Shown in pieces: positions 3,951-63,361 of a stretch of 64,000 nucleotides of DNA (its first letter is position 1; each line of letters opens with the position of its first letter). Origin of the DNA: Mangrovimonas xylaniphaga (GTDB lineage: Bacteria; Bacteroidota; Bacteroidia; Flavobacteriales; Flavobacteriaceae); NCBI RefSeq assembly GCF_001280435.1, contig NZ_LBIP01000013.1, forward strand, positions 1,798,001-1,862,000, written 5' to 3'. A model generated the notes under the pieces. That model did no database searches. It saw only the letters and a list, made by a program, of their open reading frames with translations, and was not told the DNA's origin. Position numbers and translations under genes: made by a program.

Positions 3951-5294
3951 ATGAGAGAAAAAATAGATGCTTTTTTAGACCTGGTAAAAGAAAGAAACGG
4001 GCATGAACCTGAGTTTTTACAGGCGGTTGAGGAAGTTGCAGAGACTGTAATTCCTTACATTGCAGAGCAAGATATTTATCACGGGAAGAACATCCTGTTA
4101 AGAATGGTTGAGCCAGAACGTGTCATTACTTTTAGAGTTTGTTGGGTTGACGATGAAGGTGAAATCCAAGTGAACAGAGGGTATAGAATTCAGATGAATT
4201 CGGCCATCGGACCATATAAAGGAGGTTTGCGTTTCCACCCTTCGGTAAACATGAGCATCTTGAAGTTCTTGGCCTTTGAGCAAGTCTTCAAAAACAGTTT
4301 AACCACATTGCCTATGGGTGGTGGTAAAGGAGGAAGTGATTTTGATCCTAAAGGAAAAAGTGATAATGAAATCATGAGATTCTGTCATTCCTTTATGAGT
4401 GAGATGTTCCGTCATATTGGTCCTCAAACGGATGTTCCTGCAGGGGATATTGGTGTAGGAGCTAGAGAAATTGGTTTTCTATTCGGAATGTATAAAAAGC
4501 TAAGAAATGAATTTACCGGAGTATTGACTGGTAAAGGATTGTCATGGGGTGGATCTTTGATTCGTCCGGAAGCAACAGGTTACGGTAACGTATATTTTGC
4601 ACAAAGTATGTTGCAAACAAAAGGAGACAGTTTTGAAGGAAAAACAGTCGTGGTTTCTGGATCTGGAAACGTGGCGCAATATGCTGCTGAAAAAGCAACT
4701 CAGTTAGGAGGTAAAGTGGTAACATTATCCGATTCTTCTGGATATATCTTGGATGAAGAAGGTATCGATGCCGATAAATTGGCTTACGTAATGGAGTTGA
4801 AAAATGTAAAAAGAGGGCGTATTAGTGAATATGTAAAAGCATATCCAAATGCTAAATTCTTTGAGGGCAAAACTCCTTGGGAAGTGGCCTGTGATATCGC
4901 TCTACCATGTGCGACTCAAAATGAGCTTAACGGAGACGATGCAAAAATCCTTTTGAAAAATGGTTGTATCTGTGTGAGTGAAGGAGCTAATATGCCATCT
5001 ACCAAAGAAGCGATTACTGAGTTTCACAAAGCTAAAATCCTATTCGCTCCAGGTAAAGCTTCTAATGCTGGTGGTGTAGCGACTTCAGGTTTGGAAATGA
5101 CTCAAAACTCTTTACGTTATAACTGGACAAGAGATGAGGTTGACAACAAACTAAAAGAGATCATGGCCAATATCCACGAGGCATGTATTGAATATGGAAA
5201 AGATGAAAATGGCTATATTGATTATGTAAAAGGTGCAAACATTGCCGGGTTTGTTAAGGTAGCAGATGCTATGTTGGCTCAAGGAGTGGTGTAA
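3951..5294 (+). CDS. gdhA: NADP-specific glutamate dehydrogenase
   Basis: This 447-residue cytoplasmic enzyme reversibly aminates 2-oxoglutarate to glutamate and is the usual NADPH-linked ammonium-assimilating form. The length matches the hexameric bacterial GDH class. The glutamate-binding region has RIQMNSAIGPYKGGLRFHPS and LPMGGGKGGSDFDPKGKSD, with the catalytic lysine at about residue 126 (GGGKGG). The nucleotide-binding domain carries VVSGSGNVAQYAAEKA (GxGxxA type), and SEGANMPST follows. The gene has its own -7 box and a hairpin terminator, so it is probably monocistronic. All signature residues are present. Confidence 0.96.
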   Translation: MREKIDAFLDLVKERNGHEPEFLQAVEEVAETVIPYIAEQDIYHGKNILLRMVEPERVITFRVCWVDDEGEIQVNRGYRIQMNSAIGPYKGGLRFHPSVNMSILKFLAFEQVFKNSLTTLPMGGGKGGSDFDPKGKSDNEIMRFCHSFMSEMFRHIGPQTDVPAGDIGVGAREIGFLFGMYKKLRNEFTGVLTGKGLSWGGSLIRPEATGYGNVYFAQSMLQTKGDSFEGKTVVVSGSGNVAQYAAEKATQLGGKVVTLSDSSGYILDEEGIDADKLAYVMELKNVKRGRISEYVKAYPNAKFFEGKTPWEVACDIALPCATQNELNGDDAKILLKNGCICVSEGANMPSTKEAITEFHKAKILFAPGKASNAGGVATSGLEMTQNSLRYNWTRDEVDNKLKEIMANIHEACIEYGKDENGYIDYVKGANIAGFVKVADAMLAQGVV

Positions 5295-5319
5295 CACATA
5301 CTATCATCAGATAAATTTT

Positions 5320-5351
5320 AAAAAGCTTCCATTGAAAAATGGGGGCTTTTT
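5320..5351. terminator. Hairpin terminator after gdhA
   Basis: Fourteen-bp stem (5320-5333 with 5338-5351, two G-U pairs on the plus strand) around a GAAA tetraloop, followed by a T-run. It sits between the converging gdhA and algJ-like genes and may serve both. Confidence 0.85.
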
Positions 5352-6405
5352 ATTTTTCTAATAGGGATAGTGCTTGTACAAGATTACGTTCCACAATTTC
5401 AAAAATCACAACATTTGGCTGTTCTTTTTCAATTAAATCTTTGTCTAAAGTATAACCTCTTGTATAAATGGTTTCTCCAAAACTTTCATTGAAAAAGGGA
5501 ATCAATCCTACGGCAAAAGAATCGCGATGCATTAATAGTATATAAGGTACGTCAGGGTTTAAATAGCGTTGGAATGAAAATGATAATGAATCTGCTACCA
5601 CCGAAGAATTTTGTTTTGTGAAAAATTGGGAGGTTTCGTTGGTGTGGATATTAATCATTTTTGTAATGTCTTCCTCATTTAAGGGATACGTTTTAGAAGA
5701 AAAATTTGATAATTGAGTTTTAGGGATTGGGAATGATTGATTAATCTTATCTGTAGCATAAGAATATCCAATATAAGCACCAAAATCATTCCAGTGTGTA
5801 TTGGATTTGTAATATAGCTGTCTTTGGTTTTTACTTTGAAGAAGACTTTCGGAGGGGTCTATAATTTCAAAATCAATTTTTTTCTTCAAATATTCTTTAA
5901 GTTGCTCCAGTTTATTTGGGTTTTTATTGAGTTGAAATGGAAGGTGTTCAGGGTAAATATGACTTTTGTTTGGAGCGACAACCAAATAAAACTTTATGTT
6001 TTTTGAGTTTAAATAGGTGTTGATGTTATATATGTTGGCTGTAATGCTCTCCAATTCTTCCTTAGAAATCTTGTCATTTCCGAAGGTGTCATTTAATATG
6101 TTGTTGTGGTAATTTCCTAAGAAATACCATCCGTTATTGCCTTTTATCACACGATTGGGAATCGGGTTTTCATTTAGTAGATCAGATTTAAATGAAAGAT
6201 ATTTATTGGTTAGCCCAGTCTTTAATCCAAAACTATCTGAATAAAATTCTTTGAAGTCTTTAAGAGAGGATTTAATCGCTGGGAAATCTGTAGGATTTGT
6301 TATTACATAGCTCAAACCAGTAAACATTATTGCATTGGGAAGTATGAGCATTGCAATAAATACACAGTTAAAAATAAATGTTTTATTGGATTTTAGTTGT
6401 GCCAT
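5350..6405 (-). CDS. AlgJ/AlgX-like SGNH-type polysaccharide O-acetylation protein
   Basis: This 351-residue protein has one N-terminal membrane anchor (about residues 10-32) and a periplasmic domain of the AlgJ/AlgX (DHHW) type. These proteins work with an MBOAT partner to acetylate extracellular polysaccharide. The motifs are FYLVVAPNKSHIYPEHLPF, KSNTHWNDFGAYIGY and LLMHRDSFAVGLIPFF, the last carrying the likely catalytic Ser. In the D-x-H element the Asp is Asn here (N202-T-H204). The ATG at 6403-6405 overlaps the stop of the upstream MBOAT gene in a TGATG junction, so the two are translationally coupled. The acceptor polymer is unknown. Confidence 0.8.
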   Translation of the reverse strand: MAQLKSNKTFIFNCVFIAMLILPNAIMFTGLSYVITNPTDFPAIKSSLKDFKEFYSDSFGLKTGLTNKYLSFKSDLLNENPIPNRVIKGNNGWYFLGNYHNNILNDTFGNDKISKEELESITANIYNINTYLNSKNIKFYLVVAPNKSHIYPEHLPFQLNKNPNKLEQLKEYLKKKIDFEIIDPSESLLQSKNQRQLYYKSNTHWNDFGAYIGYSYATDKINQSFPIPKTQLSNFSSKTYPLNEEDITKMINIHTNETSQFFTKQNSSVVADSLSFSFQRYLNPDVPYILLMHRDSFAVGLIPFFNESFGETIYTRGYTLDKDLIEKEQPNVVIFEIVERNLVQALSLLEK

Positions 6406-7832
6406 CAAAATCTAAAATAAATAAAGGGGTTGTAAGAGTCCGTAGCCACATAAAAACAACTGATAATGAACAAGGCTATTAGGCAAACAAATTTAACTGT
6501 ATGAATGGATTCGTTTGATTTTGGAAAGATTCCAAGCGTTTTTAATCCTTTTTTGGTTGAATCAAAAAGCGGTGTTGAGAAAATAACGGCTAGTACTAAT
6601 ACAAATAAAACTTCTTTGGTCAGGTAGAAATTTAAAAAGTCAATGTTTGTTTCGTTTTTTAAACTAAATAGATTGCCTAAATAATTGATACTGTCTTGTA
6701 TGGTATCACTTCTAAAGAAAACCCAGGAAAGGCCTACAACCAATAAAGTATAGAGATGAGAAATTACATTTGGGAGCTTTTGTAGCCTGTCTTTAAAGCC
6801 TATTCGTTCAATAATCATGAAGCCTCCGTGAATCAATCCCCAAACTATAAAAGTCCAATTGGCTCCATGCCATAATCCTGTCAGCAAAAAAACAATAAAT
6901 AGGTTTAAATAGGTGAACATTTTCCCTTTTCTGTTACCGCCCAGTGAAATGTAGAGGTAATCCTTGAACCAACTTGAGAGGGTGATGTGCCATCTGCGCC
7001 AAAATTCCTGAATGGATTTTGAAATATAGGGGAAATTGAAGTTTTCTGGGAAATTAAAACCAAACATTTTTCCTAATCCTATAGCCATATCCGAGTATCC
7101 TGAAAAATCAAAATAGATTTGGAAACTATATGCCAAAATTCCTAACCAAGCAATAAGTGCTGACCTTTCATCGCTTGGCAAGTTAAATACACCATCGGCC
7201 AAAAATGCACAGTTGTTGGCAATAATCATTTTTTTAGCCAAACCAATAATAAAACGTTCCACTCCTGAAGCAAATAAATTTGAAGTGGTTTTTCTGTTGG
7301 TAAGTTCAGCCTGAATGTCCTTGTATCTCACAATTGGCCCCGCAATTAATTGGGGAAAAAAGCAGACATAGGTAGCGAAATTTATAAGATTTCTTTGAGC
7401 TTTTACCTGTCCTCTATAGACATCTATGGTATAGGACATTGTTTGAAAGGTGTAAAAGCTAATGCCTAAGGGTAGCGCAATATTTGAAAATGTGGAACCA
7501 AAATTAACTGGAACTTGCAGTGTGTTTAAGAGGTCGGCTAAATTTGAAAAAACAAAATTAGCATACTTGAAATATAGTAGTAATCCTAAATTAAAAACAA
7601 GGGACAGGAAAAGACCTGTTTTTCTCTGTCCATTATCAATAATTTGTCCGCTAATAAAATCTATTAGAGTAGATGCCAAAATTATGACAATAAGTTCCTT
7701 TTCACCCCATGTGTAAAAGAATAAGCTGGCGAGAAGAAGCAATAGGTTTTTTAACTTTTTTGGTACTAAGCGGTAAATAATAATTGTTAGCGGAAGAAAA
7801 AGGAATAAAAATATAGGGCTACTAAAAAGCAT
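6405..7832 (-). CDS. AlgI-like MBOAT-family O-acyltransferase
   Basis: This is a 475-residue polytopic inner-membrane protein of the MBOAT family, similar to AlgI, which passes acetyl groups across the membrane to the AlgJ-like partner for polysaccharide O-acetylation. Family marks are FYTWGEKELIVIILAST near the N-terminus, EFWRRWHITLSSWFKDYLYI, SLGGNRKGK, and GLWHGANWTFIVWGLIHGG, which holds the conserved active-site His. About ten hydrophobic segments are visible and the length is typical (450-520). It is the first gene of a two-gene operon with the downstream AlgJ-like gene. No polysaccharide synthase lies nearby, so the acceptor polymer must be made elsewhere. Confidence 0.9.
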   Translation of the reverse strand: MLFSSPIFLFLFLPLTIIIYRLVPKKLKNLLLLLASLFFYTWGEKELIVIILASTLIDFISGQIIDNGQRKTGLFLSLVFNLGLLLYFKYANFVFSNLADLLNTLQVPVNFGSTFSNIALPLGISFYTFQTMSYTIDVYRGQVKAQRNLINFATYVCFFPQLIAGPIVRYKDIQAELTNRKTTSNLFASGVERFIIGLAKKMIIANNCAFLADGVFNLPSDERSALIAWLGILAYSFQIYFDFSGYSDMAIGLGKMFGFNFPENFNFPYISKSIQEFWRRWHITLSSWFKDYLYISLGGNRKGKMFTYLNLFIVFLLTGLWHGANWTFIVWGLIHGGFMIIERIGFKDRLQKLPNVISHLYTLLVVGLSWVFFRSDTIQDSINYLGNLFSLKNETNIDFLNFYLTKEVLFVLVLAVIFSTPLFDSTKKGLKTLGIFPKSNESIHTVKFVCLIALFIISCFYVATDSYNPFIYFRF

Positions 7833-7877
7833 AGTGCTTGTTAAACAATTGAAAAGCCAAAATACAATAAATATTGC

Positions 7878-7885
7878 TATTTTTG
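7878..7885 (+). promoter_or_regulatory. -7 promoter box for porZ
   Basis: TATTTTTG is an exact TAnnTTTG match, 29 bases before the porZ-like start codon. No -33 element with good spacing is evident. Confidence 0.55.
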
Positions 7886-7914
7886 GTTACTCTTTAGACT
7901 TCTAAATTTTTTTA

Positions 7915-10314
7915 ATGAAACCTTATTTTTACGTATATATACTAGCCTGTTTGTTTTGTTTTAAAACTTCACTAGCCCAGGATTTTTCCACCTTGTGGCA
8001 GGGACATTTTTCTTATTTGGATATTAAGGATTTTTCTAAAGGTGAAGACCATATATATGTGGCTTCTGATAATGCCATATTTATATATGATATTAATTTC
8101 GGGACCATTGAAGAAATTACAACGGTAAATGGTTTGTCTGGAGAGTCGATTTCAACTATTCATTATAGTGAAGCCTTTGATGAGTTATTAATTGGTTATG
8201 AAAACGGATTGGTTGAAGTACTTTCAAACAATTTTACAGAGGTAACCACGGTTATTGACATTCTTAACAAGCCAACCATCCCAACTAATATAAAAAGGAT
8301 TAATCATTTTAATGAGCATGATGGATATGTGTATATAGCAACTGATTTTGGTATTTCAGAATACGATTTAGAGAACTTAGAATTTGGAGACACTTTTTAT
8401 GTGGGGATAGGTAGTTCTCACATAAAGGTTTATCAAACTACCATTAGTAATGGATTTATTTATGCCGCCTGTGGGGATAATAATGCAATAAAAATAGGTG
8501 ATTTGTCAAATCCAAACCTAATTGATTATACACAGTGGGAGACATTGGGAACTGGGAGTTTTGTTGGGATTGAACAATTGGGTAATAACTTATATGCATT
8601 CAAATCTAACAAAATCGCTTATGAAATTTTAAATGGCAATTTGAACAGTATTTTTACATATCCACAAGTGCCTTTGGATATGAGAAGTGATGAAGACAAT
8701 TTGGTGGTAACAACAAATTCTCAGGTATATCTTTATAGTGATGGCTTTGTGCAAACAGGGGTGGTAGACGCTCCTGCAGAATTGACGACCTCCTTTACTT
8801 CAGGTATTGTTGATTACCAAAATAATGTGTATGCTGGGACAAAAGGGATTTTATCAAGTGGAAAACCTGGCCATGGAGTTTTAAAAATGGCTGTTTCTGC
8901 TCCAGAAATCTATGATGAAATTCATCCTCAAGGGCCTTTGTTAAATAATATATTTTCAATTCAGACTCCAAGTAATGAAATTTGGACCGTTTTTGGAGGG
9001 TACTCATCCACCTATAACTTTAATGGAGGAAAGGCAAGAACAGGGGTTAGCCATTTTAAAAATGAACAATGGATCAATACGCCTTATGACACTATAGCCG
9101 CTGTTGTGAGTAATCCAAATTATCTTTCACATATAGCCGTTAATCCTATAAATCGTAAACAAGTTTATATATCATCTTATAGTGCTGGATTAATTGAAAT
9201 AAACAATGACCAGGTAATACAGGTCTATAATCAAGATAATAGTACCATCACTCCTTTTGCGGGGAATTCGCATTTAACTCTTTCGGGTGCTTTTGAAAAT
9301 GATGGTACCTTATGGTTGACAAATGGAAGGGTAGAGAGTCCTTTAAATAAATTTTCTGATGACCAGTGGACTTCCTTTGATTTTACTTCTATAATTGATG
9401 CTCCTCTGGAAAATATAGGATTTTCATCAACTATTGTGGATTCTCAGGGAAATGTTTTCTTCGGAAGTTATTATTATGGCGTGTTGGGATTCAATGAAAA
9501 TGGAGGTAATAATTTTATGAATTTTGTGGCTTCTGAGGAAGAAAATATGCCTTCTACAATTGTACGATCCCTTGCCTTAGATAATAATAATCAGCTGTGG
9601 ATAGGTACCGAAAGAGGTTTGCGGGTCATGTATAATCCGGGAAGTTTTGTTGCAGGCTCACAGGCCAATGTACATGAAATTGTAATTTTGCAGGATGGTT
9701 TGGCAGAAGAGCTTTTAGTAGAGCAAACAATAACTTCTATCCAAGTAGACGGCTCCAATAACAAATGGATTGGCACCTTGAATTCGGGGGTTTTTTACTT
9801 CTCTCCAGACGGCCAGGAAACTATTTATCATTTTACCAAAAGCAATTCTCCTCTACCTTCCAATGCCATTAATGACATTTCCATTGACAGTGAAAATGGT
9901 AGAGTTTATTTTGCAACAAGCAACGGTTTGGTTTCCTTTTTAGCGGGAGGTTCCAAAAGCGAGGAGGAGTTGGATGATGCTTTTGTTTATCCAAACCCAG
10001 TGAGACCGGAATATAACATTTTAGGGTTTGATGATCTTAACAATATTACTAAGGGTGTCAAAATAAAAGGGCTTACCGAAAATGTCAATATTAAAATTAC
10101 CGATATAGAAGGGAATTTGGTAGCTGAAGCCCAATCAAGAGTAAACCAACGTACCTCAAGAGCGGGTTATAATTTTGCCATCGATGGGGGCACCGCGATT
10201 TGGAATGGTAAAAACCTTGCCAATAATGTGGTGGCTACTGGGGTGTATCTTATCATGATTTCCGATTTGGATTCTTTTGAAACTAAAGTGTTGAAGTTGC
10301 TTATTGTTAGATAA
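7915..10314 (+). CDS. porZ: PorZ-like type IX secretion system propeller protein
   Basis: This 799-residue exported protein has a signal peptide (residues 1-21, ending SLAQ), two long stretches of beta-propeller repeats, and a C-terminal T9SS-type sorting domain starting near VYPNPVRPEYN and ending with GVYLIMISDLD...KVLKLLIVR. Propeller blades show the recurring pattern YIATDFGISEYD, LWIGTERGLRVMYN and KWIGTLNSGVFYFS. This order matches PorZ, which in Porphyromonas sits at the cell surface and helps deliver anionic LPS for attachment of T9SS cargo. The gene is followed 13 bp later by recO, an arrangement I associate with flavobacterial porZ. A general two-component-type propeller protein is the alternative. 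Confidence 0.8.
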   Translation: MKPYFYVYILACLFCFKTSLAQDFSTLWQGHFSYLDIKDFSKGEDHIYVASDNAIFIYDINFGTIEEITTVNGLSGESISTIHYSEAFDELLIGYENGLVEVLSNNFTEVTTVIDILNKPTIPTNIKRINHFNEHDGYVYIATDFGISEYDLENLEFGDTFYVGIGSSHIKVYQTTISNGFIYAACGDNNAIKIGDLSNPNLIDYTQWETLGTGSFVGIEQLGNNLYAFKSNKIAYEILNGNLNSIFTYPQVPLDMRSDEDNLVVTTNSQVYLYSDGFVQTGVVDAPAELTTSFTSGIVDYQNNVYAGTKGILSSGKPGHGVLKMAVSAPEIYDEIHPQGPLLNNIFSIQTPSNEIWTVFGGYSSTYNFNGGKARTGVSHFKNEQWINTPYDTIAAVVSNPNYLSHIAVNPINRKQVYISSYSAGLIEINNDQVIQVYNQDNSTITPFAGNSHLTLSGAFENDGTLWLTNGRVESPLNKFSDDQWTSFDFTSIIDAPLENIGFSSTIVDSQGNVFFGSYYYGVLGFNENGGNNFMNFVASEEENMPSTIVRSLALDNNNQLWIGTERGLRVMYNPGSFVAGSQANVHEIVILQDGLAEELLVEQTITSIQVDGSNNKWIGTLNSGVFYFSPDGQETIYHFTKSNSPLPSNAINDISIDSENGRVYFATSNGLVSFLAGGSKSEEELDDAFVYPNPVRPEYNILGFDDLNNITKGVKIKGLTENVNIKITDIEGNLVAEAQSRVNQRTSRAGYNFAIDGGTAIWNGKNLANNVVATGVYLIMISDLDSFETKVLKLLIVR

Positions 10315-24513: not shown

Positions 24514-26118
24514 TTATTGAAGGGTAGGAGCGTAGTTTGTTGGGAAGTTTCCTATATCTACTAAATTTCCTGAGGCTTCAAAATTGGATCCGTAAGTTTG
24601 GTCGATGGCCTTAAGGAAGGCATTTGCTATTGCAGCGTAACCCCTTGAGGTAAGGTGTACACCATCCAAAGACATGGCTCCTCCCGTAACCAAATTGGCG
24701 CTTAAGGTAAAATCACCATCTGTTAAACCTCCGTTGGCCAATTGGTACAACATAGCGTTGGCATCAACCATTGCTAAACCAGCTGCAGAGGCGGCCGCTT
24801 GAATTGTTGCGTTAAAACTATTGGTGGCAGTGGCTATTTCGGTTTGCTCTGTTGGAATCAATACCCATTTATCTTCCAATGGTAAGGTGATCCCCTCTAC
24901 TGAAAACTGTCCAGCTAAAGCTTGAGGTAATCCTTGCGCCATTAAAGCTCCTGCATAGGAGCTGTTCACTGTACCAATTACAGTACTGCTGGTCAACACA
25001 AATAAGTCATTTTCGTTGGCCTGTCTTGTCTGTCCGTAGGTTTGGCCTAATAAAGCCGCTACCAATGGAGCTGCTTCCTCAGGAAGTCCAAATTGGCCTA
25101 TAAAGGCAGGGAAGGTTGGACTGGCCATTAAGGCTCCCGTAATGGTAGATGAAATATCTTCTAAACTTTCGTCCTTAATCACCACGGCACTTGCTTCTGT
25201 TTCAGAAAATACAATGGCTCTTTCAGGAGCTCCTATAGCTACGTAAACTTGGTTTAAAGCACCAAAAATAGCATTCAAGGTTGGAATTTGAGGTCCGAAA
25301 TCAGGGTTGGAAGGATCCAAAGGATTGTAAGGAACCGTTGTAAAATGAGGAATTGTTGTGATGTCTGGAATGTTTGCAACCACCCCTTTAGCACCTCCTG
25401 ATGTTAGAGTTGTTACAAGAGTAGAGATGGCATAATCAAAGGTTGGCTGGTCTGTTATAGGTGAAGACCCATCGGCACCACTTAAAGCATATCCTAAAAC
25501 GTCATTGTTTCCTATCCACATAGTAAAGAAGGATGGGTTTTGAGCCATAGCCATTTCAATAACACTAGCATCTGGAGTGGCCCCCGTCATTCTTACAAAA
25601 TAAGGATTGGCCAATCCTGCTGAAAGGTTGGCTATATTTCCATAACCTGGAGCCAAAAGATGAAAACTTTTCGCCCCTGGAACTCCCATATTGTTGAAAG
25701 GCCCGGTGGGATTGTTGGTAGCAATATCTGTAGTTACGGTTACTGTTCCAATCACCGATTCTAAAGGTACTGGCCCAGCTCCTCCAAAGACCAATCTTGG
25801 GGAGGCAATGCGGTTTCCTGCTAGGGCCAACCCTCCGTAATTGTCGTTCATTAATGGTTGAGTGAAAGTTCCGCCATCGGCTAAACTGAATTGTGAGGCC
25901 AAAATGTTAGGATAGGAATTTTCTTGAGAGGCTATAAATAGGGCTCCATCGGTATAACCAGAGGTTAATGAGTTTCCTAAAGAAACGTAATTTGAAAAAT
26001 CAGCTTCTCCTGCGGTTAATTCAGGTAGGGGTTCTGTAGAAGGAGCTATTGTGTCGTCACTGTCGCAGGCCATGAATCCTAAGGAGATGGCGAGCAACCA
26101 TATATATTTTGTATTCAT
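24514..26118 (-). CDS. GDSL/SGNH-family surface lipoprotein
   Basis: This 534-residue lipoprotein has its lipobox Cys at residue 18 (ISLGFMAC) followed by acidic residues. It carries the SGNH hydrolase blocks: block I VSLGNSLTSGYTDG, with Ser50 as nucleophile and GNSL in place of GDSL; block III, MWIGNNDVLGYALSG; and block V, SLDGVHLTSRGYAAIAN, with the catalytic Asp and His. The fold acts as an esterase or lipase; the substrate is unknown. It lies 21 bp after a TonB receptor gene on the same strand. I infer that the hydrolase and receptor process and import the same compound, perhaps a lipid ester. Confidence 0.85.
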   Translation of the reverse strand: MNTKYIWLLAISLGFMACDSDDTIAPSTEPLPELTAGEADFSNYVSLGNSLTSGYTDGALFIASQENSYPNILASQFSLADGGTFTQPLMNDNYGGLALAGNRIASPRLVFGGAGPVPLESVIGTVTVTTDIATNNPTGPFNNMGVPGAKSFHLLAPGYGNIANLSAGLANPYFVRMTGATPDASVIEMAMAQNPSFFTMWIGNNDVLGYALSGADGSSPITDQPTFDYAISTLVTTLTSGGAKGVVANIPDITTIPHFTTVPYNPLDPSNPDFGPQIPTLNAIFGALNQVYVAIGAPERAIVFSETEASAVVIKDESLEDISSTITGALMASPTFPAFIGQFGLPEEAAPLVAALLGQTYGQTRQANENDLFVLTSSTVIGTVNSSYAGALMAQGLPQALAGQFSVEGITLPLEDKWVLIPTEQTEIATATNSFNATIQAAASAAGLAMVDANAMLYQLANGGLTDGDFTLSANLVTGGAMSLDGVHLTSRGYAAIANAFLKAIDQTYGSNFEASGNLVDIGNFPTNYAPTLQ

Positions 26119-26139
26119 ATTAATGATGTTTGCTAATTG

Positions 26140-28920
26140 TTATAGGTTGTTGATTGTCCATGAAACGTAGTACATAGATCCTATGTATCCAGTACCAATG
26201 GCAGTAAAGTACTCATCGCCCAATAGGTTGGTGGCGCCAGCTTTAAAGCTAGATTTGATAGATGGTACTCTGTAGTTAACTTGGGCATCCAAGGTGTGGT
26301 ATGCTGGGATAGCGCCGTCACCAAAGGTTGCTTGCCAGTAGTAATCGTCGCTCCATCTCCAAGCTATGTTAAATCCAAAGTTTTTGAACAAATCGGTATG
26401 CCCAAAAGAAGCCTTTACTTTATGTTCTGGCGTGTTAAAGTTGGTTCTGAAATCTGGATAGGCTGCTTGATCAAAATCTTGTTTTGTATAAGTATAGCTT
26501 CCTCCTAAATCGAAATCACCAAATATTTTTGTTGAAACCCCAAGGGAACCACCATAAGAATTTACATCAGCTTCTGAATTGGTGTATGCTTGGTAAACAT
26601 TGTAATCTCCATTAGCAATGGCAGCAACAGAAAGTGTGTTGTCTCCAACTTCACCGTAAAGTGGTGCTATCACATTTTCACTAGAGATAAAGTCTTTGTA
26701 CTTGTTGTAGTAAACGCTGAAGTCAATAATGTTTTTTTCAAACTTACCACGATACCCAACTTCAAAAGAAGTTACACGTTCTGGTTTTACCAGGTCTGGA
26801 TTTCCTATTTCTAAAAGGGCAGGGTTCCCTGCTAGTGAAAAGGCTTGTACGGAAGATGCTGAATAGGAGTTGTTATAAGCGGCAGCTCCTGTTTGGGTAA
26901 TACTAGAAGGTTGTCCTAATAATTGTCCCGAAGCGCTTACAGCATAATCTCTTGAATAACGGTCTAAGTTATCAGGGGCAGCACCAACTAAAACGGCGCG
27001 TCCCGCGTCCAATCCAATGAATAAATCCTGTGTAGTTGGGTTTCTGAATCCGGTTTGTACAGATGCACGGATGTTGTGGTCTTCATGCAAAGTTAAACCT
27101 GCCGATAATCTTGGCGACAAGAACCCATCAAAGAATTCTGATTTGTCATAACGAATAGAGCCTGTTAGCTTTAAGGACATATCATTGTTGAACTTTAAAA
27201 GTTTCTGCATTTGTGTATAGATTCCGAATTCGGAATAATCGATAGCTCCGTCGTAATCGGTATAGATGGTTCCAGAAGAATTAAGGCTGTACTTTCTGTA
27301 AGAACCTCCAACTTGAATTTCAACAACATCCCATAAATGTGTGAAGTTGTAGTTGGCATCGGCATGGTAATATTTGGAAGCATCCTGGAATTTAGACCCA
27401 GTGCTTAAGTTTGGATCGCTGATACTTCTGTTGAAAGCCGCTTGGAATTCAGGAGAACCTGGTTCATATCTTCCGGTGTCGGCCTGGGCACGGGCAATAG
27501 CATGGGCTTGTTCATTTGTTGCTCCAGCCAAAGTGGCCTGTACATAGGTTCCTGTATATTCTCCAAACCAAGTTTGGTCATCTTTCCAAGCTCTGTTGAT
27601 ATTGATTCCCGTGAAAACCATATCGTAAGAATCTCCGGCTTTATCAGAAACCACATACCCTCTAACAAAGAAGTTGTTGTTGCGAACTTCCAATTTGTGT
27701 TGTTGTTGGAAGAAGTTGTCAATAGTATATCTGTTGGTTCCTTGATAAATGGTAGAACCTGTTCCAATTTTACCAACATAGGCAATTTCAAAGTCATCGG
27801 CCATTGGTCTGAAGTACAATCCCCAGTCGGCTTTAATACTTTCCGCATTATAATCGGTTAAATCGCGTTCTTCATATCCTGTTCTACTTACGTCTACAGA
27901 AGGCACTAACGATTCGGCACCACTTGGAAGAATTCCCAAGCCAACCAATGCTAAGGCCACGTCTCTAATGTCTGTAGAAACTTCATCTCCATAAATATTG
28001 TATCCATCATATCCAACACTTGCTCTAGTGTCTCCTGTACCTGGTTTTCCTTGGTAGTTGTTCGCTACCCAGTCCGTTCCTTTTAACCAACCAAAATTTA
28101 CTTTGGCTGCAAACTTATCACTGAATTTGTAAGCTGCTCTAATCCCAGCGTCTCTGTAAGTGTTATCTCCTGCAGCATCTTGCGAAGTAATTCCTTGCTT
28201 GTAGTACCCACTAATTCCATGGTGATCAAATGGATTTTTACTACGCATGAACAAAATACCATTGAAGGCGTTAGCTCCGTACAAAGCCGAAGCAGCACCA
28301 GGCAATAGTTCTACACTTTGGATATCGGTTTCATTCATCCCAACCAAATTCCCAATTGGGAAGTTAAGGGCCGGTGTAGAGTTGTCCATGCCGTCTACCA
28401 ACTGCATGAAACGGGTATTGGCGAAGGTGGCAAAACCTCTTGTATTGATAGCCTTAAAGGTTAAACTGTTGGTGTTCACGTCTACTCCCTTTAAGTTTTC
28501 AAGTCCGTCGTAAAAATCTGCAGAAGCGGTGTTTTTGATTTCCTTTAAACCAAAACGTTCCACTGTAACTGGGGATTCAAAAATACGTTCAGGAGTTCTG
28601 GAGGCAGAAATAACAATTTCGTCCAGTTCTGTTCCTTCGGTTAAAATAATGTCTATGGTTTGAGGGTTGGTAGTAATTTCTTTAGTGACACTTTGAAATC
28701 CAACGCTACTTACTTGGATGCTAAATGGAGGTTGTTGATTGACAACAAAGGAATAATTTCCGTCAAAATCCGAAATGGTACCTTCGGAGGAACCAAGAGC
28801 TATAATGTTGGCTCCTGGAAGCGGTTGGCCGTTGTGGTCGGTAATTTTTCCTGATACGGTAGTTTGTGCAAACGAAAAGGCACAAAAAAGCAGCATAAGA
28901 ATCTTAGGGAGTGTTTTCAT
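26140..28920 (-). CDS. TonB-dependent receptor with carboxypeptidase-like N-domain
   Basis: This 926-residue outer-membrane receptor has a signal peptide (residues 1-18, ending FAQ), a carboxypeptidase regulatory-like domain (about 20-100, SGKITDHNGQPLPGANIIAL), a plug domain (DEIVISASRTPERIFESPV, AINTRGFATFANTRFMQLVD, VELLPGAASALYGANAF) and a barrel with a C-terminal strand ending TINNL. It has the N-domain of SusC-type receptors but no SusD gene beside it; the partner is a GDSL-type lipoprotein. Upstream, a 38-bp palindrome (28983-29020) could be an operator. The ligand is not identified. Confidence 0.88.
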   Translation of the reverse strand: MKTLPKILMLLFCAFSFAQTTVSGKITDHNGQPLPGANIIALGSSEGTISDFDGNYSFVVNQQPPFSIQVSSVGFQSVTKEITTNPQTIDIILTEGTELDEIVISASRTPERIFESPVTVERFGLKEIKNTASADFYDGLENLKGVDVNTNSLTFKAINTRGFATFANTRFMQLVDGMDNSTPALNFPIGNLVGMNETDIQSVELLPGAASALYGANAFNGILFMRSKNPFDHHGISGYYKQGITSQDAAGDNTYRDAGIRAAYKFSDKFAAKVNFGWLKGTDWVANNYQGKPGTGDTRASVGYDGYNIYGDEVSTDIRDVALALVGLGILPSGAESLVPSVDVSRTGYEERDLTDYNAESIKADWGLYFRPMADDFEIAYVGKIGTGSTIYQGTNRYTIDNFFQQQHKLEVRNNNFFVRGYVVSDKAGDSYDMVFTGININRAWKDDQTWFGEYTGTYVQATLAGATNEQAHAIARAQADTGRYEPGSPEFQAAFNRSISDPNLSTGSKFQDASKYYHADANYNFTHLWDVVEIQVGGSYRKYSLNSSGTIYTDYDGAIDYSEFGIYTQMQKLLKFNNDMSLKLTGSIRYDKSEFFDGFLSPRLSAGLTLHEDHNIRASVQTGFRNPTTQDLFIGLDAGRAVLVGAAPDNLDRYSRDYAVSASGQLLGQPSSITQTGAAAYNNSYSASSVQAFSLAGNPALLEIGNPDLVKPERVTSFEVGYRGKFEKNIIDFSVYYNKYKDFISSENVIAPLYGEVGDNTLSVAAIANGDYNVYQAYTNSEADVNSYGGSLGVSTKIFGDFDLGGSYTYTKQDFDQAAYPDFRTNFNTPEHKVKASFGHTDLFKNFGFNIAWRWSDDYYWQATFGDGAIPAYHTLDAQVNYRVPSIKSSFKAGATNLLGDEYFTAIGTGYIGSMYYVSWTINNL

Positions 28921-59033: not shown

Positions 59034-61583
59034 ATGAAAAACATTTACCAGTTACTATGTGCAGCTGCTGTATTTTTATGTAGTTCGGCGCTGTTCTCAC
59101 AAAGCACTATCAAAGGTAAAATCATCGGTTCAGACTTCAGCGAACCATTACCAGGTGCAAACATCATTGAAAAGGGGACATCAAACGGGACAACCACCGA
59201 TTTTGATGGAAATTTCACAATTACTACACAAGCAAGTTCGGGAGAATTGGTGATTACCTACGTAGGGTATACCACCCAGACCATTACCTTTAGTGGTGAT
59301 CAGGACTTTGGAGTCATCACTTTGGAGTCTAGCGAGGTTGGGTTGCAGGAAGTCCAAATCATTGCTTCTGTGGCCGTAGATAGGAAAACGCCGGTAGCAG
59401 TGTCTACGGTAAAGGCAGAAGAAATCGAATTGAAATTGGGTACCCAGGAATTTCCTGAAGTTCTAAAATCAACACCAGGGGTGTATGCTACTAAATCTGG
59501 AGGAGGTTTCGGAGATGGTCGTATCAATTTGAGGGGGTTTGAATCCGATAACGTAGCGGTTCTAATTAACGGTATACCGGTAAACGATATGGAAAATGGT
59601 CGGGTATATTGGAGTAACTGGGCAGGTCTGTCTGATGTCACAAGTTCAATGCAGGTGCAACGTGGTTTGGGAGCTTCCAAAGTAGCGGTGCCTTCAGTTG
59701 GGGGAACAATTAATATTCTTTCAAAAACGACCGATGTGGAAGCTGGGGGGAATATTTCTACCCAGGTTGCCAATGATGGGTACTTTAAGGTTGGAGCCAC
59801 CTATTCAACAGGATTGATGGATAATGGTTTTGCAGCTACCATTTCAGCAGCAAAAACAGACGGAGATGGATATGTAGACGGTACGGAATTCAATGCTTTT
59901 TCATATTTTATTAACTTGTCAAAGGAGATAGGGGATGATCATAAATTGTCCTTTACAGCTTTTGGGGCAAAGCAACGCCACGGACAACGTCAAAATAGAC
60001 AGTTAATTTCTACCTATCGAGCAAGTGAAAGTGGTAAGCGTTTTAATGCTGATTGGGGGTATAAAAACGGACAGGTAACGCATCAGGAAGATAATTTTTA
60101 TCATAAACCACAGTTGTCTTTAAACCACTATTGGAATATTTCAGATGCTACCACTTTATCAACGGCTTTATATGCTTCCTTTGGATCTGGAGGTGGAGGA
60201 GGTTTCACTGGCACTAACAAGTTTGGCTTAGGCGAAGGAGGCGTGAGTGATTACAGGTATGGTTTGTATGGACCAATCAACTTTGATAAAGTTGTTGAGG
60301 AAAATGAAGAGTTAGGAGCGTTTGGTTCGGAGACGATTCTTAGGGCCTCACGTAACGACCATATTTGGTATGGAATATTGTCTACCTTGAAAACAGATTT
60401 GACTGATAATTTAGTATTGTTGGGAGGATTGGATTTGAGAAATTATAAAGGCATCCACTTTACCGAATTGACAGACTTGTTAGGAGGACAACATTTTGCT
60501 GATGACAGTGATGAAAACAACCCTAATGGCACCTACCAAGTTGGTGATAAGATTTTATACTACAATGATGGACTTGTAGGTTGGCAAGGGCTATTTGGCC
60601 AATTGGAATATTCTCAGGATAGATTAGCTGCATTTGTATCATTAGCAGCATCCAATACTTCTTATAAACGTATAGATTACTTCAATTATTTGGATAGTGA
60701 TCCACTTCAGGAAACAGACCGTTATAATTTCCTAGGGTATAGTGCCAAGGGAGGGGCTAACTTCAATTTAACAGATAACCATAACGTTTTTGCTAATATT
60801 GGCTATTTTGAAAAAGCGCCAGGTTTTGATGCTGTTTTCTTGAATTTTGATAACGAGCATATCAATGATGGGGCTGAGAATCAAAAGATTTTTAGTGTGG
60901 AATTTGGCTATGGTTTTAGAAGTGATAAACTCTCAGCTAATATAAACCTTTATAGAACCGCTTGGAGGGACAGAACAGAAACTTATAATTTTCAACAACC
61001 AGATGGTACAAATTCAACAGCCAATATTTTGGGGGTAAATGCCATTCATCAAGGGTTGGAGATTGATTTTGTGTATAAGCCATTTGAAAATTTAAGAGTG
61101 ACTGGTATGGCCTCATTTGGCGATTGGAGATGGGAAGATAATGTAGAAAATGTTCAAATTTTCGATGATGAGCAAGAATTGGTTGATACTGTTGATTTGT
61201 TTATCAAAGATTTGCACGTTGGGGATGCGGCCCAAACTACTTTCGCATTAGGACTTAATTATGAAATTATGAATGGTACCAATCTAATGGTAGATTATAA
61301 CTATTATGATCGTCTATATGCCGATTTTGATCCAAGTGACAGAGGCTCAGCAGGTGCGCCCGATGCATGGGAAGTGCCAGCTTATGGTTTGTTTGATATG
61401 GCCTTGTCTCATAAATTTGACTTTGGGCCTTTTGATATGCGTTTGATAGGAAGAATGAACAATGTATTCAATACTGAATATATTTCGGATGCCTTGGATG
61501 GAACTGGGTCTATTTCTTCCACAGCATTGGTATATTATGGCTACGGTAGAACCTTTAGTGTGGGAGCTAAGCTTAACTTTTAA
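59034..61583 (+). CDS. TonB-dependent receptor with carboxypeptidase-like N-domain
   Basis: This 849-residue outer-membrane receptor has a signal peptide (1-22, ALFSQ), a carboxypeptidase-like domain (about 23-105, KGKIIGSDFSEPLPGANIIE), a plug (TPVAVSTVKAEEIELKLGTQ, RINLRGFESDNVAVLINGIP, MQVQRGLGASKVAVPSVGGT) and a barrel ending GRTFSVGAKLNF. No SusD-type gene follows; the next gene, 12 bp away, is a lipoprotein with four repeated modules. Together they look like a two-gene uptake or surface complex. The ligand is unknown. The pair is flanked by pgi and gldD. Confidence 0.88.
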   Translation: MKNIYQLLCAAAVFLCSSALFSQSTIKGKIIGSDFSEPLPGANIIEKGTSNGTTTDFDGNFTITTQASSGELVITYVGYTTQTITFSGDQDFGVITLESSEVGLQEVQIIASVAVDRKTPVAVSTVKAEEIELKLGTQEFPEVLKSTPGVYATKSGGGFGDGRINLRGFESDNVAVLINGIPVNDMENGRVYWSNWAGLSDVTSSMQVQRGLGASKVAVPSVGGTINILSKTTDVEAGGNISTQVANDGYFKVGATYSTGLMDNGFAATISAAKTDGDGYVDGTEFNAFSYFINLSKEIGDDHKLSFTAFGAKQRHGQRQNRQLISTYRASESGKRFNADWGYKNGQVTHQEDNFYHKPQLSLNHYWNISDATTLSTALYASFGSGGGGGFTGTNKFGLGEGGVSDYRYGLYGPINFDKVVEENEELGAFGSETILRASRNDHIWYGILSTLKTDLTDNLVLLGGLDLRNYKGIHFTELTDLLGGQHFADDSDENNPNGTYQVGDKILYYNDGLVGWQGLFGQLEYSQDRLAAFVSLAASNTSYKRIDYFNYLDSDPLQETDRYNFLGYSAKGGANFNLTDNHNVFANIGYFEKAPGFDAVFLNFDNEHINDGAENQKIFSVEFGYGFRSDKLSANINLYRTAWRDRTETYNFQQPDGTNSTANILGVNAIHQGLEIDFVYKPFENLRVTGMASFGDWRWEDNVENVQIFDDEQELVDTVDLFIKDLHVGDAAQTTFALGLNYEIMNGTNLMVDYNYYDRLYADFDPSDRGSAGAPDAWEVPAYGLFDMALSHKFDFGPFDMRLIGRMNNVFNTEYISDALDGTGSISSTALVYYGYGRTFSVGAKLNF

Positions 61584-61595
61584 AAAAAGATTGAC

Positions 61596-63308
61596 ATGAA
61601 AAGAATAGTTTATTTATTATTTGTATTGATAGGAGCCACGTTTATAGGCTGTGATCCTATGGGAGACATTTATAATGATTTAGATGATCAGAATAGTTCT
61701 GCTGTAGTAGGTACAGATGAGTATACATTAACAGAAGATGATTACGAGGCTTTAGATTTGACGTATGGAAGTTTCGATTCTGAAGACGATGCTCGTGAGA
61801 TGATTCCAGGATTGTTGGCCGATATGTACCCTTATTGGGGGGCTGGTTCTCAAGTATTGGTGTCGTATAATTTATATGTAGGGGATGCTGAAGGTTTAAG
61901 TGATTTTACAGGTGCAGATGTCTATCAATTGACCACGGCGGATTATGCAGCTTCAGGCAGTGATGCTTTTGGGTACTATCCAAATGTTGATGCTACAGAA
62001 GAGATTATCTCGGTCTTGGATGCTCAAATTTCATCTCCTTCCGAAGGGCAAATTGTGTTGGCGCAATACAGACAGTATTTGGAAATCCCGGAAGTAGGCT
62101 TTGCTAATTTATATGAATATGGTTTTAACGGTACTCTAGATGGATTTGAGAGTGTTAATGTGCTTGGTGATCAAGTGTGGGAAGCGGCCTCTTTTGGAGG
62201 TGTGGAATATGCCTATATGAGTGGATACGATAGTGGAAGTATTGTTAATGAAGATTGGTTGATTTCTCCTGAATTGGATTTGTCGGGTGAGTCCGATGTT
62301 AGAGTTCAAATTAACCAAGCAATCAATTACGCTAGTGACTTAGCGCTATTGGGGGTCTGGGTGTCATCAGACTATACGACGGGAGGAGATGTTTCATCTG
62401 CTACTTGGGAATTGATTGATTTTGCAAATGCTCCTGCGGGAAATAATTGGAGTTTCGTGTTGTCTGAAGATTATGATTTGTCTGCTTATGATGGGGAGAC
62501 CATCCACATTGCTTTTAAATATGAATCTACTACCGAAGAGGCTGCTTCTTGGGAAATAGATGAGTTATTCGTGAAATCACTGGGTGTTTCAGGGGATTAC
62601 GATTCCAAGGGAGAGTATTTTGTGTATTCTGAAGGTGCTTGGGAAGTAATGGAGGATGTCTATTATCTAAGTTCCGAAGATTATAACTCTATGGGAGAAG
62701 GGGCTGGTCAACCAGGACAATATGATAACTTTAGTAGTTCAACTCCAGCGGATAGCTATTTGCCTACTTTCTTGAGCATCAAATATCCCTATGCACAAGA
62801 AGAAGATCAAATTTTTGTAATCTATAAGTACTATTCAAGTTCGGCAGGAGCGGTTCAAATAAGAGGAAATTCATATACTGTGATTGAAGGGGAATGGACG
62901 CCTCATGCATCTACGGTGGAAACCACTCTTCAGTTTGGACATGATGGGACGGAATGGGTGCCAGATAACACGATTCAATACACTTTAACAAGGGATGATT
63001 ACGACTATATAGTATCACAATTAGAAAACGAACCGGGTTATGAAGCGGCTACCTCAAGTATGGACAATTATGGAAACTTGGACAGAAGGCCAAGTCAGGC
63101 GGCTTATTGGAGTGATGCTGATACTCAAAATAGCGCGGGTATTACGGATATGATTGCAAATGCAATGGGGGTTTTATTGGATCATATTGATCCTGCTGCC
63201 GAAGAGGAGCAAAAGTACCTTTTAACTTATGATATATATAATGGAACCAATACTACCGAAAGTATAGCGATGATTAAAGTTGGTGGTGCCTGGGTTAGAA
63301 ATGACTAA
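61596..63308 (+). CDS. Lipoprotein with four repeated modules and a jelly-roll-like domain
   Basis: This 570-residue exported lipoprotein (Cys19, GATFIGC, then DPMGD) shows a repeated module opening with Y-x-L-[TS]-x-x-D-Y and closing with a hydrophobic strand. The openings lie at residues 43 (YTLTEDDY), 110 (YQLTTADY), 356 (YYLSSEDY) and 462 (YTLTRDDY). The closing strands read QVLVSYNLY, QIVLAQYRQY, QIFVIYKYY and KYLLTYDIY. Between copies two and three (about 170-330) lies a choice-of-anchor-J/DUF5017-like domain (GFNGTLDGFESVNVLGDQVW, WEIDELFVKS). I do not know a family with this layout, and no function can be assigned. Confidence 0.75.
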   Translation: MKRIVYLLFVLIGATFIGCDPMGDIYNDLDDQNSSAVVGTDEYTLTEDDYEALDLTYGSFDSEDDAREMIPGLLADMYPYWGAGSQVLVSYNLYVGDAEGLSDFTGADVYQLTTADYAASGSDAFGYYPNVDATEEIISVLDAQISSPSEGQIVLAQYRQYLEIPEVGFANLYEYGFNGTLDGFESVNVLGDQVWEAASFGGVEYAYMSGYDSGSIVNEDWLISPELDLSGESDVRVQINQAINYASDLALLGVWVSSDYTTGGDVSSATWELIDFANAPAGNNWSFVLSEDYDLSAYDGETIHIAFKYESTTEEAASWEIDELFVKSLGVSGDYDSKGEYFVYSEGAWEVMEDVYYLSSEDYNSMGEGAGQPGQYDNFSSSTPADSYLPTFLSIKYPYAQEEDQIFVIYKYYSSSAGAVQIRGNSYTVIEGEWTPHASTVETTLQFGHDGTEWVPDNTIQYTLTRDDYDYIVSQLENEPGYEAATSSMDNYGNLDRRPSQAAYWSDADTQNSAGITDMIANAMGVLLDHIDPAAEEEQKYLLTYDIYNGTNTTESIAMIKVGGAWVRND

Positions 63309-63331: not shown

Positions 63332-63361
63332 AAAAAGCCATCAACACGTTGATGGCTTTTT
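63332..63361. terminator. Hairpin terminator between lipoprotein gene and gldD
   Basis: Thirteen-bp stem, AAAAAGCCATCAA (63332-63344) and TTGATGGCTTTTT (63349-63361), CACG loop, A/T-runs on both sides. It lies between convergent genes. Confidence 0.88.

Follow-up and report, generated by a model that had tools for sequence, protein, structure and literature searches.

A TonB-dependent receptor of Mangrovimonas xylaniphaga is paired with a four-module lipoprotein that probably represents a new partner class

Dedicated surface lipoproteins work on the TonB-dependent transporters of the BtuB-BtuG and XusA-XusB systems (PMC10404256 and PMC13142918, as described in the accessible parts of these reports). 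In Riemerella anatipestifer, a receptor and a lipoprotein with DUF5689 and choice-of-anchor-J domains form a pair required for DNA transformation, and no uptake pilus was found in this organism, according to the accessible part of PMC8459023; tonB mutants transform less (PMC8383284, accessible part). Exported nucleases of the Endonuclease I family (EndA, PF04231) are known from Flavobacterium johnsoniae, where two of them rise on phosphate depletion and their genes are listed as orphans (PMC8115612, accessible part). Here we analyze a receptor-lipoprotein gene pair in a 64,000-nucleotide stretch of the Mangrovimonas xylaniphaga genome (contig NZ_LBIP01000013.1, positions 1,798,001 to 1,862,000; hereafter the window). 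Judged by sequence, the gene pair, which joins a TonB-dependent receptor to a lipoprotein partner of a new class, is well supported. Its parts are as follows.

59034..61583, + strand: TonB-dependent receptor gene, 849 amino acids (aa), from the open reading frame (ORF) scan and Pfam; N-terminal CarboxypepD-like domain at aa 26-108, plug at aa 117-224, barrel to aa 849
61584..61595, + strand: spacer of 12 bp between the receptor stop codon (61581-61583) and the lipoprotein ATG (at 61596)
61596..63308, + strand: four-module lipoprotein gene, 570 aa, from ORF, structure model and profile comparisons
61596..61652, + strand: lipoprotein signal peptide with Cys19, followed by D-P-M-G-D
61707..61883, + strand: module 1, about aa 38-96
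61900..62950, + strand: exchangeable middle cassette (module 2, jelly roll, module 3), with borders placed to within about 150 bp
61911..62084, + strand: module 2, about aa 106-163
62091..62588, + strand: jelly roll of choice-of-anchor-J type, aa 166-331, optional in the lipoprotein family
62604..62915, + strand: module 3, about aa 337-440
62958..63305, + strand: module 4, about aa 455-570

By its N-domain, plug and barrel, all above curated Pfam cut-offs (PF13715, 64.3 bits against 32.2; PF07715, 59.9 against 23.9; PF00593, 42.5 against 27), the first gene product is a TonB-dependent receptor. An earlier note on this DNA had described a lipoprotein starting 12 bp after a receptor with a SusC-like N-domain, and both the ORF coordinates and the match of the N-domain to CarbopepD_reg_2 agree with it. 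The receptor lies outside SusC/RagA as defined by TIGR04056, which gave 106.1 bits against a cut-off of 368.25, in two stretches, the best of them N-terminal (aa 25-185).

The pairing of the two genes is highly regular. The lipoprotein profile matched 64 of 299 Flavobacteriaceae genomes. When the receptor was searched in an equal-sized draw with the same handles (three candidates scored per genome), the same 64 genomes reached at least 858 bits and all others at most 714. A receptor gene lies directly upstream on the same strand in 69 of the 70 lipoprotein loci, so homologs do adjoin receptors, a count that the earlier note had proposed; the spacer measures 3-30 bp in 66 of these 69. The sole exception (L121) starts at the edge of a contig, and in its genome (G232) the receptor is found on another contig. 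The pairing also holds at loci outside the gene run around PGI in which the window pair lies (six such loci: L083-L086, L113 and L119), in another family and in another class of the phylum. Lipoprotein-linked receptors were split from the others by one fully supported branch of the receptor tree (67 versus 24 rows). Both receptor trees were quick ones; the first held 69 of the 70 loci, with L093, a near-copy from the same genus, left out, and for the second we removed L121 (contig edge) and L010 (receptor in two ORFs), which had wrong receptor rows. In L010, from Winogradskyella vidalii (positions 5403-7988), the partner receptor is split into two neighboring ORFs (431 and 426 aa) next to a lipoprotein gene that is intact, and reads as broken or misassembled.

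Twenty hand-picked receptors with lower scores (about 494-714 bits) occupy the same slot after PGI or M23 without the module lipoprotein, and both receptor kinds stand in tandem in L010, L054 and L113. In loci L129-L148, the PGI slot often holds a receptor of about 860-930 aa that stands alone, with no lipoprotein, and mostly precedes a protein of ~145 aa that looks membrane-bound by eye.

The lipoprotein is built from repeated modules. The earlier note had reported four copies of a module opening Y-x-L-[TS]-x-x-D-Y and closing with a strand. The motif does occur four times (YTLTEDDY, YQLTTADY, YYLSSEDY and YTLTRDDY), and in the AlphaFold2 model every module runs from a strand through helices to a long strand at its close. 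Profile-profile comparison of the four module subalignments linked all 6 of 6 module pairs (89-98% probability, E 2e-6 to 2e-15), versus 0.2-0.5% probability for each module against the jelly roll. Thus, as read from these profiles, the modules are homologous to each other, beyond chance similarity. A segment QFG..W.PDNTI precedes module 4, and within this module lies a D/E-R-R..W-S/T-D segment that 12 short forms conserve. Some modules of relatives lack the exact Y-x-L motif; the module is defined by its whole pattern.

A profile search built from the modules, which the earlier note had suggested, was carried out. The single-module profile matched all four copies separately in the M. xylaniphaga genome (E 2e-22, 1e-21, 4e-13 and 2e-5) and nothing further there among the 15 of 17 candidates scored. 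Among 365 genomes from across the phylum, 8 were positive, with 3-5 matches per genome, all within this lipoprotein family; the whole-protein profile found the same 8 genomes in an overlapping draw of 394. Since single-module matches fall only at its loci, the module appears private to this lipoprotein family in what was searched. A confident match of the modules to a known family, which the earlier note had named as refuting its view, was likewise looked for. Scans of the window protein and five relatives against Pfam and NCBIfam gave no known family for them, and the search against PDB sequences gave no match (best E 0.09 with the single protein and 0.58 with a 58-row profile). The absence of SusD resemblance that the earlier note had seen was borne out: SusD-type models of Pfam and NCBIfam had no match to the window lipoprotein up to E 1 and none in the five scanned relatives.

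AlphaFold2 gave the window lipoprotein a mean predicted local distance difference test (pLDDT) score of 86.4 and a predicted template modeling (pTM) score of 0.49, and a short form 89.6 and 0.60; by pLDDT both models are confident, but with such pTM values, the domain arrangement in both is unreliable. The whole short-form model was compared with the PDB, and nothing convincing was found (best Foldseek E 0.027 at probability 0.11; best VIA Z 4.4 over 58 residues, root mean square deviation [rmsd] 2.5). The predicted fold of the modules is therefore without a convincing PDB match, which falls short of proving a new fold. A search of the open-access literature by title returned, among the matches listed, nothing on this lipoprotein or on a nuclease-receptor locus of such kind. 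Taken at the level of sequence families, the modules would be an undescribed type and the lipoprotein a new class in a known kind of system.

The middle domain of the lipoprotein is of a known type. Residues 175-325 match NF038128 (choice_anch_J) with 52.6 bits against a cut-off of 30 which, with the fold matches below, upholds the jelly-roll-like domain that the earlier note had placed between two modules on each side. Its modeled fold resembles gingipain adhesin domains, a carbohydrate-binding domain, and Eph or MAM domains, the closest being the carbohydrate-binding domain of a chondroitinase (Z 16.2, 162 residues, rmsd 3.1) and the gingipain adhesins. BtuG and XusB folds were not among the structure matches listed for either lipoprotein model, an absence that proves nothing. 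The M949_1556 model, NF052645 (DUF5689 lipoprotein), fits the jelly roll somewhat better than the general domain does (E 3e-17 and 6e-14); the match covers the jelly roll only and reaches 62.7 bits against a cut-off of 475, and PF18942 (DUF5689) had no match in the window lipoprotein in Pfam. The jelly roll is missing from the short forms of the family, as the members on the receptor tree show. The 67 lipoproteins placed on this tree comprise 24 short forms with four modules and no insert, 34 with the jelly roll, 2 with another domain, and 7 that are long without jelly roll and were read as having extra modules (by alignment for L054 and L056-L059, by length and extra profile hits for L055 and L113).

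Surface-exposed lipoproteins of Bacteroidota carry an acidic lipoprotein export signal (LES) after the lipobox Cys (PMC5080379, accessible part). The commonest pattern after the lipobox in our family is C-[NDE]-P-x-[ED]-D, with acidic residues mostly at +5 and +6 after N/D/E-P-x, and at +2 and +6 in the window lipoprotein; this signal is unlike the C-X-K-(D/E)2 form of Capnocytophaga canimorsus. The family is very acidic (median isoelectric point 4.05, net charge -12 per 100 aa).

As read from block identities, the locus has a mosaic history, with an unusual pattern of exchange, in which the middle of the lipoprotein was swapped between lineages. The closest named relatives of the window lipoprotein are from Mangrovimonas species. 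Compared with Mangrovimonas sp. TPBH4, protein identity is 97% in PGI, 99% in the receptor N-domain, 61% in plug and barrel, 57% in the lipoprotein N end, 89% in its middle, 56% in its C end and 94% in GldD. DNA identity changes in steps at the same places (80-91% in the middle cassette, 57-72% in the lipoprotein flanks). In plug and barrel, TPBH4 shares 78-82% identity with four other genera, yet its PGI and theirs share only 71-76%. Differing rates cannot account for this; exchange can. A second congener showed fairly even identity along the locus (70-98% per 150 bp). Within the receptor, the N-domain (59034-59357) and the plug and barrel (59500-61583) are 99% and 61% identical to L003, and 48% and 83% identical to L008. 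The N-domain seems, on these values, to have been exchanged separately from plug and barrel.

On the receptor tree, the lipoprotein middle (jelly roll, nothing, extra modules or other domain) underwent at least 14 architecture changes; for the jelly roll, the best count was 16 changes versus 22.7 with shuffled labels. In 28 jelly-roll loci, the nearest relative by receptor was also the nearest by middle in 6. Block correlations were calculated for 53 loci (69 minus L010, L084 and L121, seven loci without C-motif and six without long PGI). Agreement with the receptor was best for the N end (Spearman 0.53 among jelly-roll and 0.64 among short forms) and lower for the middle (0.26 and 0.34), which thus does not simply go along with the receptor.

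In many relatives, the gene pair is followed by a nuclease gene. A predicted Endonuclease I gene comes immediately after the pair, in the same orientation, in 30 of 70 loci, with a gap of 40-106 bp in 27 of the 30. The family PF04231 was confirmed by model in four of the 30 and in one more (L006), and by BLAST in the others. The motif N-T-E-H is present in 29 of the 30 locus-linked nucleases; the nuclease of L006, 757 bp from the pair, is of the N-R-E-H kind, which also occurs in L053 and L090. By a crude pattern, 21 of the 30 have a lipoprotein-type signal. Ig-like repeats were found in the four model-scanned nucleases, and fibronectin and lamin-tail domains in that of L006. At loci outside the PGI run, G119 and G100 have no Endonuclease I other than the adjacent one, and G180 has one adjacent out of two; in G444 and G180, the only S1/P1 nuclease of the genome lies within about 3 kb of the pair. 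In G303, the nearest nuclease-type gene seen belongs to the exo/endonuclease/phosphatase family and is about 7 kb off.

None of the 20 hand-picked lipoprotein-less receptor loci had a nuclease within four genes. A Fisher test against these (p 1e-4) was not relied on, because it ignores relatedness, used hand-picked loci and predates two counter-loci, found via the nuclease, which do carry one. In these (L149 and L150, about 4000-9500), an N-T-E-H Endonuclease I lies between PGI and a 35-36% identical receptor, with no module lipoprotein among the genes shown. The nuclease may thus be tied more closely to the receptor slot than to the lipoprotein.

A DUF5689 gene was present within the fetched stretch in 31 of 70 loci, and an exo/endonuclease/phosphatase gene between the pair and the DUF5689 gene was confirmed by model in L004, L042 and L113. 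The M. xylaniphaga genome has its own receptor and DUF5689/choice-of-anchor-J lipoprotein pair, of the type required for transformation in Riemerella (contig C5, near 1.25 Mb; L088:2-9936), with an exo/endonuclease/phosphatase gene 6 kb further on.

In the window, no Endonuclease I follows the pair; the only one of this genome is encoded on a different contig and carries a sorting tail of the secretion-system kind. The lipoprotein gene is followed by a terminator-like hairpin with T tail (63332..63361, + strand; the pattern scan of the region found 4 versus 2.8 expected) and by gldD in opposite orientation. Upstream of the receptor are PGI, an M23 peptidase gene, a gene labeled TDO (label given without model run) and a DUF3108 gene. 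We rejected PGI as a pointer to sugar uptake, since PGI-M23-TDO-DUF3108 is a fixed gene order also found beside receptors without module lipoprotein. Elsewhere in the window (24514-28920, - strand), a receptor-sized ORF of 926 aa, 33% identical to the pair's receptor over the matched part, precedes a 534-aa ORF; the two are perhaps a SusCD pair. The earlier note did not mention that the jelly roll belongs to a known domain type and is optional, that relatives often have a nuclease gene next in the locus, or that the locus is mosaic.

We propose that the two proteins form a dedicated outer-membrane uptake complex, in which a surface lipoprotein would serve the TonB-dependent receptor as lid or capture protein. 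By analogy with SusCD, BtuB-BtuG and XusA-XusB, it would close over the receptor mouth, take the cargo and pass it on for TonB-driven import. The end modules (module 1, perhaps also module 4) would lie at the receptor, and the middle cassette would face outward and be exchanged between lineages. As cargo we suggest nucleic acid, in the form of DNA fragments or oligonucleotides that Endonuclease I would produce by cutting at the surface; in the M. xylaniphaga genome, the nuclease would have to come from elsewhere. Three things make nucleic acid the first choice: the nuclease gene, the lipoprotein-type signal that 21 of 30 nucleases carry by the crude pattern, and the nearby transformation-type pair. 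It is quite probable that the pair forms a complex; nucleic acid as its cargo comes close to an even chance. The reading as a whole, a receptor-lid complex that works like SusCD, has an exchangeable outer cassette and most likely takes up nucleic acid, is one we hold tentatively, at somewhat under even. The SusCD-like uptake complex with a new lipoprotein class that the earlier note had put forward thus stands as a gene pair (69 of 70 loci), while we infer the physical complex, the surface exposure, the cargo and the receptor-contacting parts.

Several observations weigh against this proposal, and some of them point to another cargo. After 40 of 70 pairs, including the one in the window, there is no nuclease gene (L106 and L117, counted here, have <2 kb of DNA downstream), and explaining nuclease presence on the receptor tree takes at least 9 changes. 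Among 46 matches of the nuclease subfamily (at least 214 bits), 29 are beside the lipoprotein and 17 elsewhere: ten beside an RsmB-like gene, two between PGI and a lipoprotein-less receptor and five in other places. An exclusive nuclease-lipoprotein tie is ruled out by these 17. We take the neighbor in the ten cases, assigned by eye, to be RsmB-like, with what is presumably a PurL-like gene near eight of the ten. G119 and G100 have an S1/P1 nuclease away from the pair, and G452 has no nuclease near it. The strong acidity of the lipoprotein does not speak for direct DNA binding, and nothing resembles the modeled jelly roll more closely than a carbohydrate-binding domain does. The receptor itself is mosaic, which makes counts on its tree rough. 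The C end tracks the receptor in short forms (Spearman 0.65) and not in jelly-roll forms (0.17). To a degree, the middle tracks the N end as well (0.51 and 0.55), so that these correlations support a sharp split between frame and cassette only in part. Finally, the defect of a tonBB mutant was put down by its authors to poor iron uptake (PMC8383284, accessible part).

The same receptor-lid complex could carry a glycan, siderophore, vitamin or peptide, the nuclease being a separate gene in an insertion-tolerant PGI slot; we regard this as a real possibility, clearly below even. The missing nucleases, the acidity and the likeness of the jelly roll to the chondroitinase domain and gingipain adhesins would fit, and known non-SusD partners serve vitamin B12 (PMC10404256) and siderophores (PMC13142918), as stated in the accessible parts of these reports. 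The other neighbors, labeled from our own queries and a few model scans, may include recurring sugar or iron genes. However, the nuclease is on the same strand with short gaps even outside the PGI run, and within four genes it was absent from all 20 lipoprotein-less loci of the slot, although two more such loci have one. It is improbable that the lipoprotein acts chiefly as a variable shield or decoy covering the receptor, under pressure from phages or bacteriocins that use this receptor, with uptake secondary. Blockwise exchange of the middle cassette and receptor between species would be expected under escape selection, but cargo changes could equally drive it, and the nuclease link would be left unexplained. 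We know of no phage or bacteriocin for this receptor. SusC-like and SusD-like parts occur in the Flavobacterium BAM (β-barrel assembly machinery) complex. A BAM complex has been described for F. johnsoniae (PMC12611786, accessible part), which speaks for an envelope-assembly or housekeeping complex on a receptor-like barrel; yet such a part should be near-universal and the pair is present in 64 of 299 family genomes, so that we consider this explanation very improbable.

For the favored receptor-lid complex, a bolder and rather unlikely extension is a nucleic-acid utilization locus built like a polysaccharide utilization locus. Here, surface Endonuclease I would cut, the lipoprotein would capture and the receptor would import, and the outer cassette would be swapped by recombination as cargo or phage pressure changes. 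How nucleic acid passes the outer membrane of Bacteroidota is an open question, for which this second type of receptor-lipoprotein pair offers a candidate. The pair, often coupled to a nuclease gene, is also a directly testable candidate for the use of DNA as a food or phosphorus source, and the exchange of blocks among receptor, lipoprotein ends and outer cassette is an experiment of nature as to which lid parts go with the receptor.

Compared with known systems, the pair is like SusCD importers in layout: a TonB-dependent receptor with CarboxypepD-like N-domain, a lipoprotein gene immediately after it and, in many relatives, a gene for a degradative enzyme that completes the locus. Unlike them, the window receptor scores 106 bits versus 368 for the SusC/RagA model, and the lipoprotein has four modules and an optional jelly roll instead of a SusD match. 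The proposed likeness to BtuB-BtuG and XusA-XusB, a dedicated surface lipoprotein on the transporter, is drawn from the published descriptions of these systems. With the Riemerella transformation pair (RA0C_RS04920/RS04915), it shares a receptor and a lipoprotein with jelly roll, whereas the window lipoprotein lacks DUF5689 and has four modules, a comparison made against models and not against the Riemerella genes; receptors of neighboring DUF5689 pairs are about 23-28% identical to the window receptor. In contrast to the orphan PF04231 genes of F. johnsoniae, Endonuclease I genes of this family, nearly all of the N-T-E-H kind, are the next gene after the pair in 30 of 70 loci.

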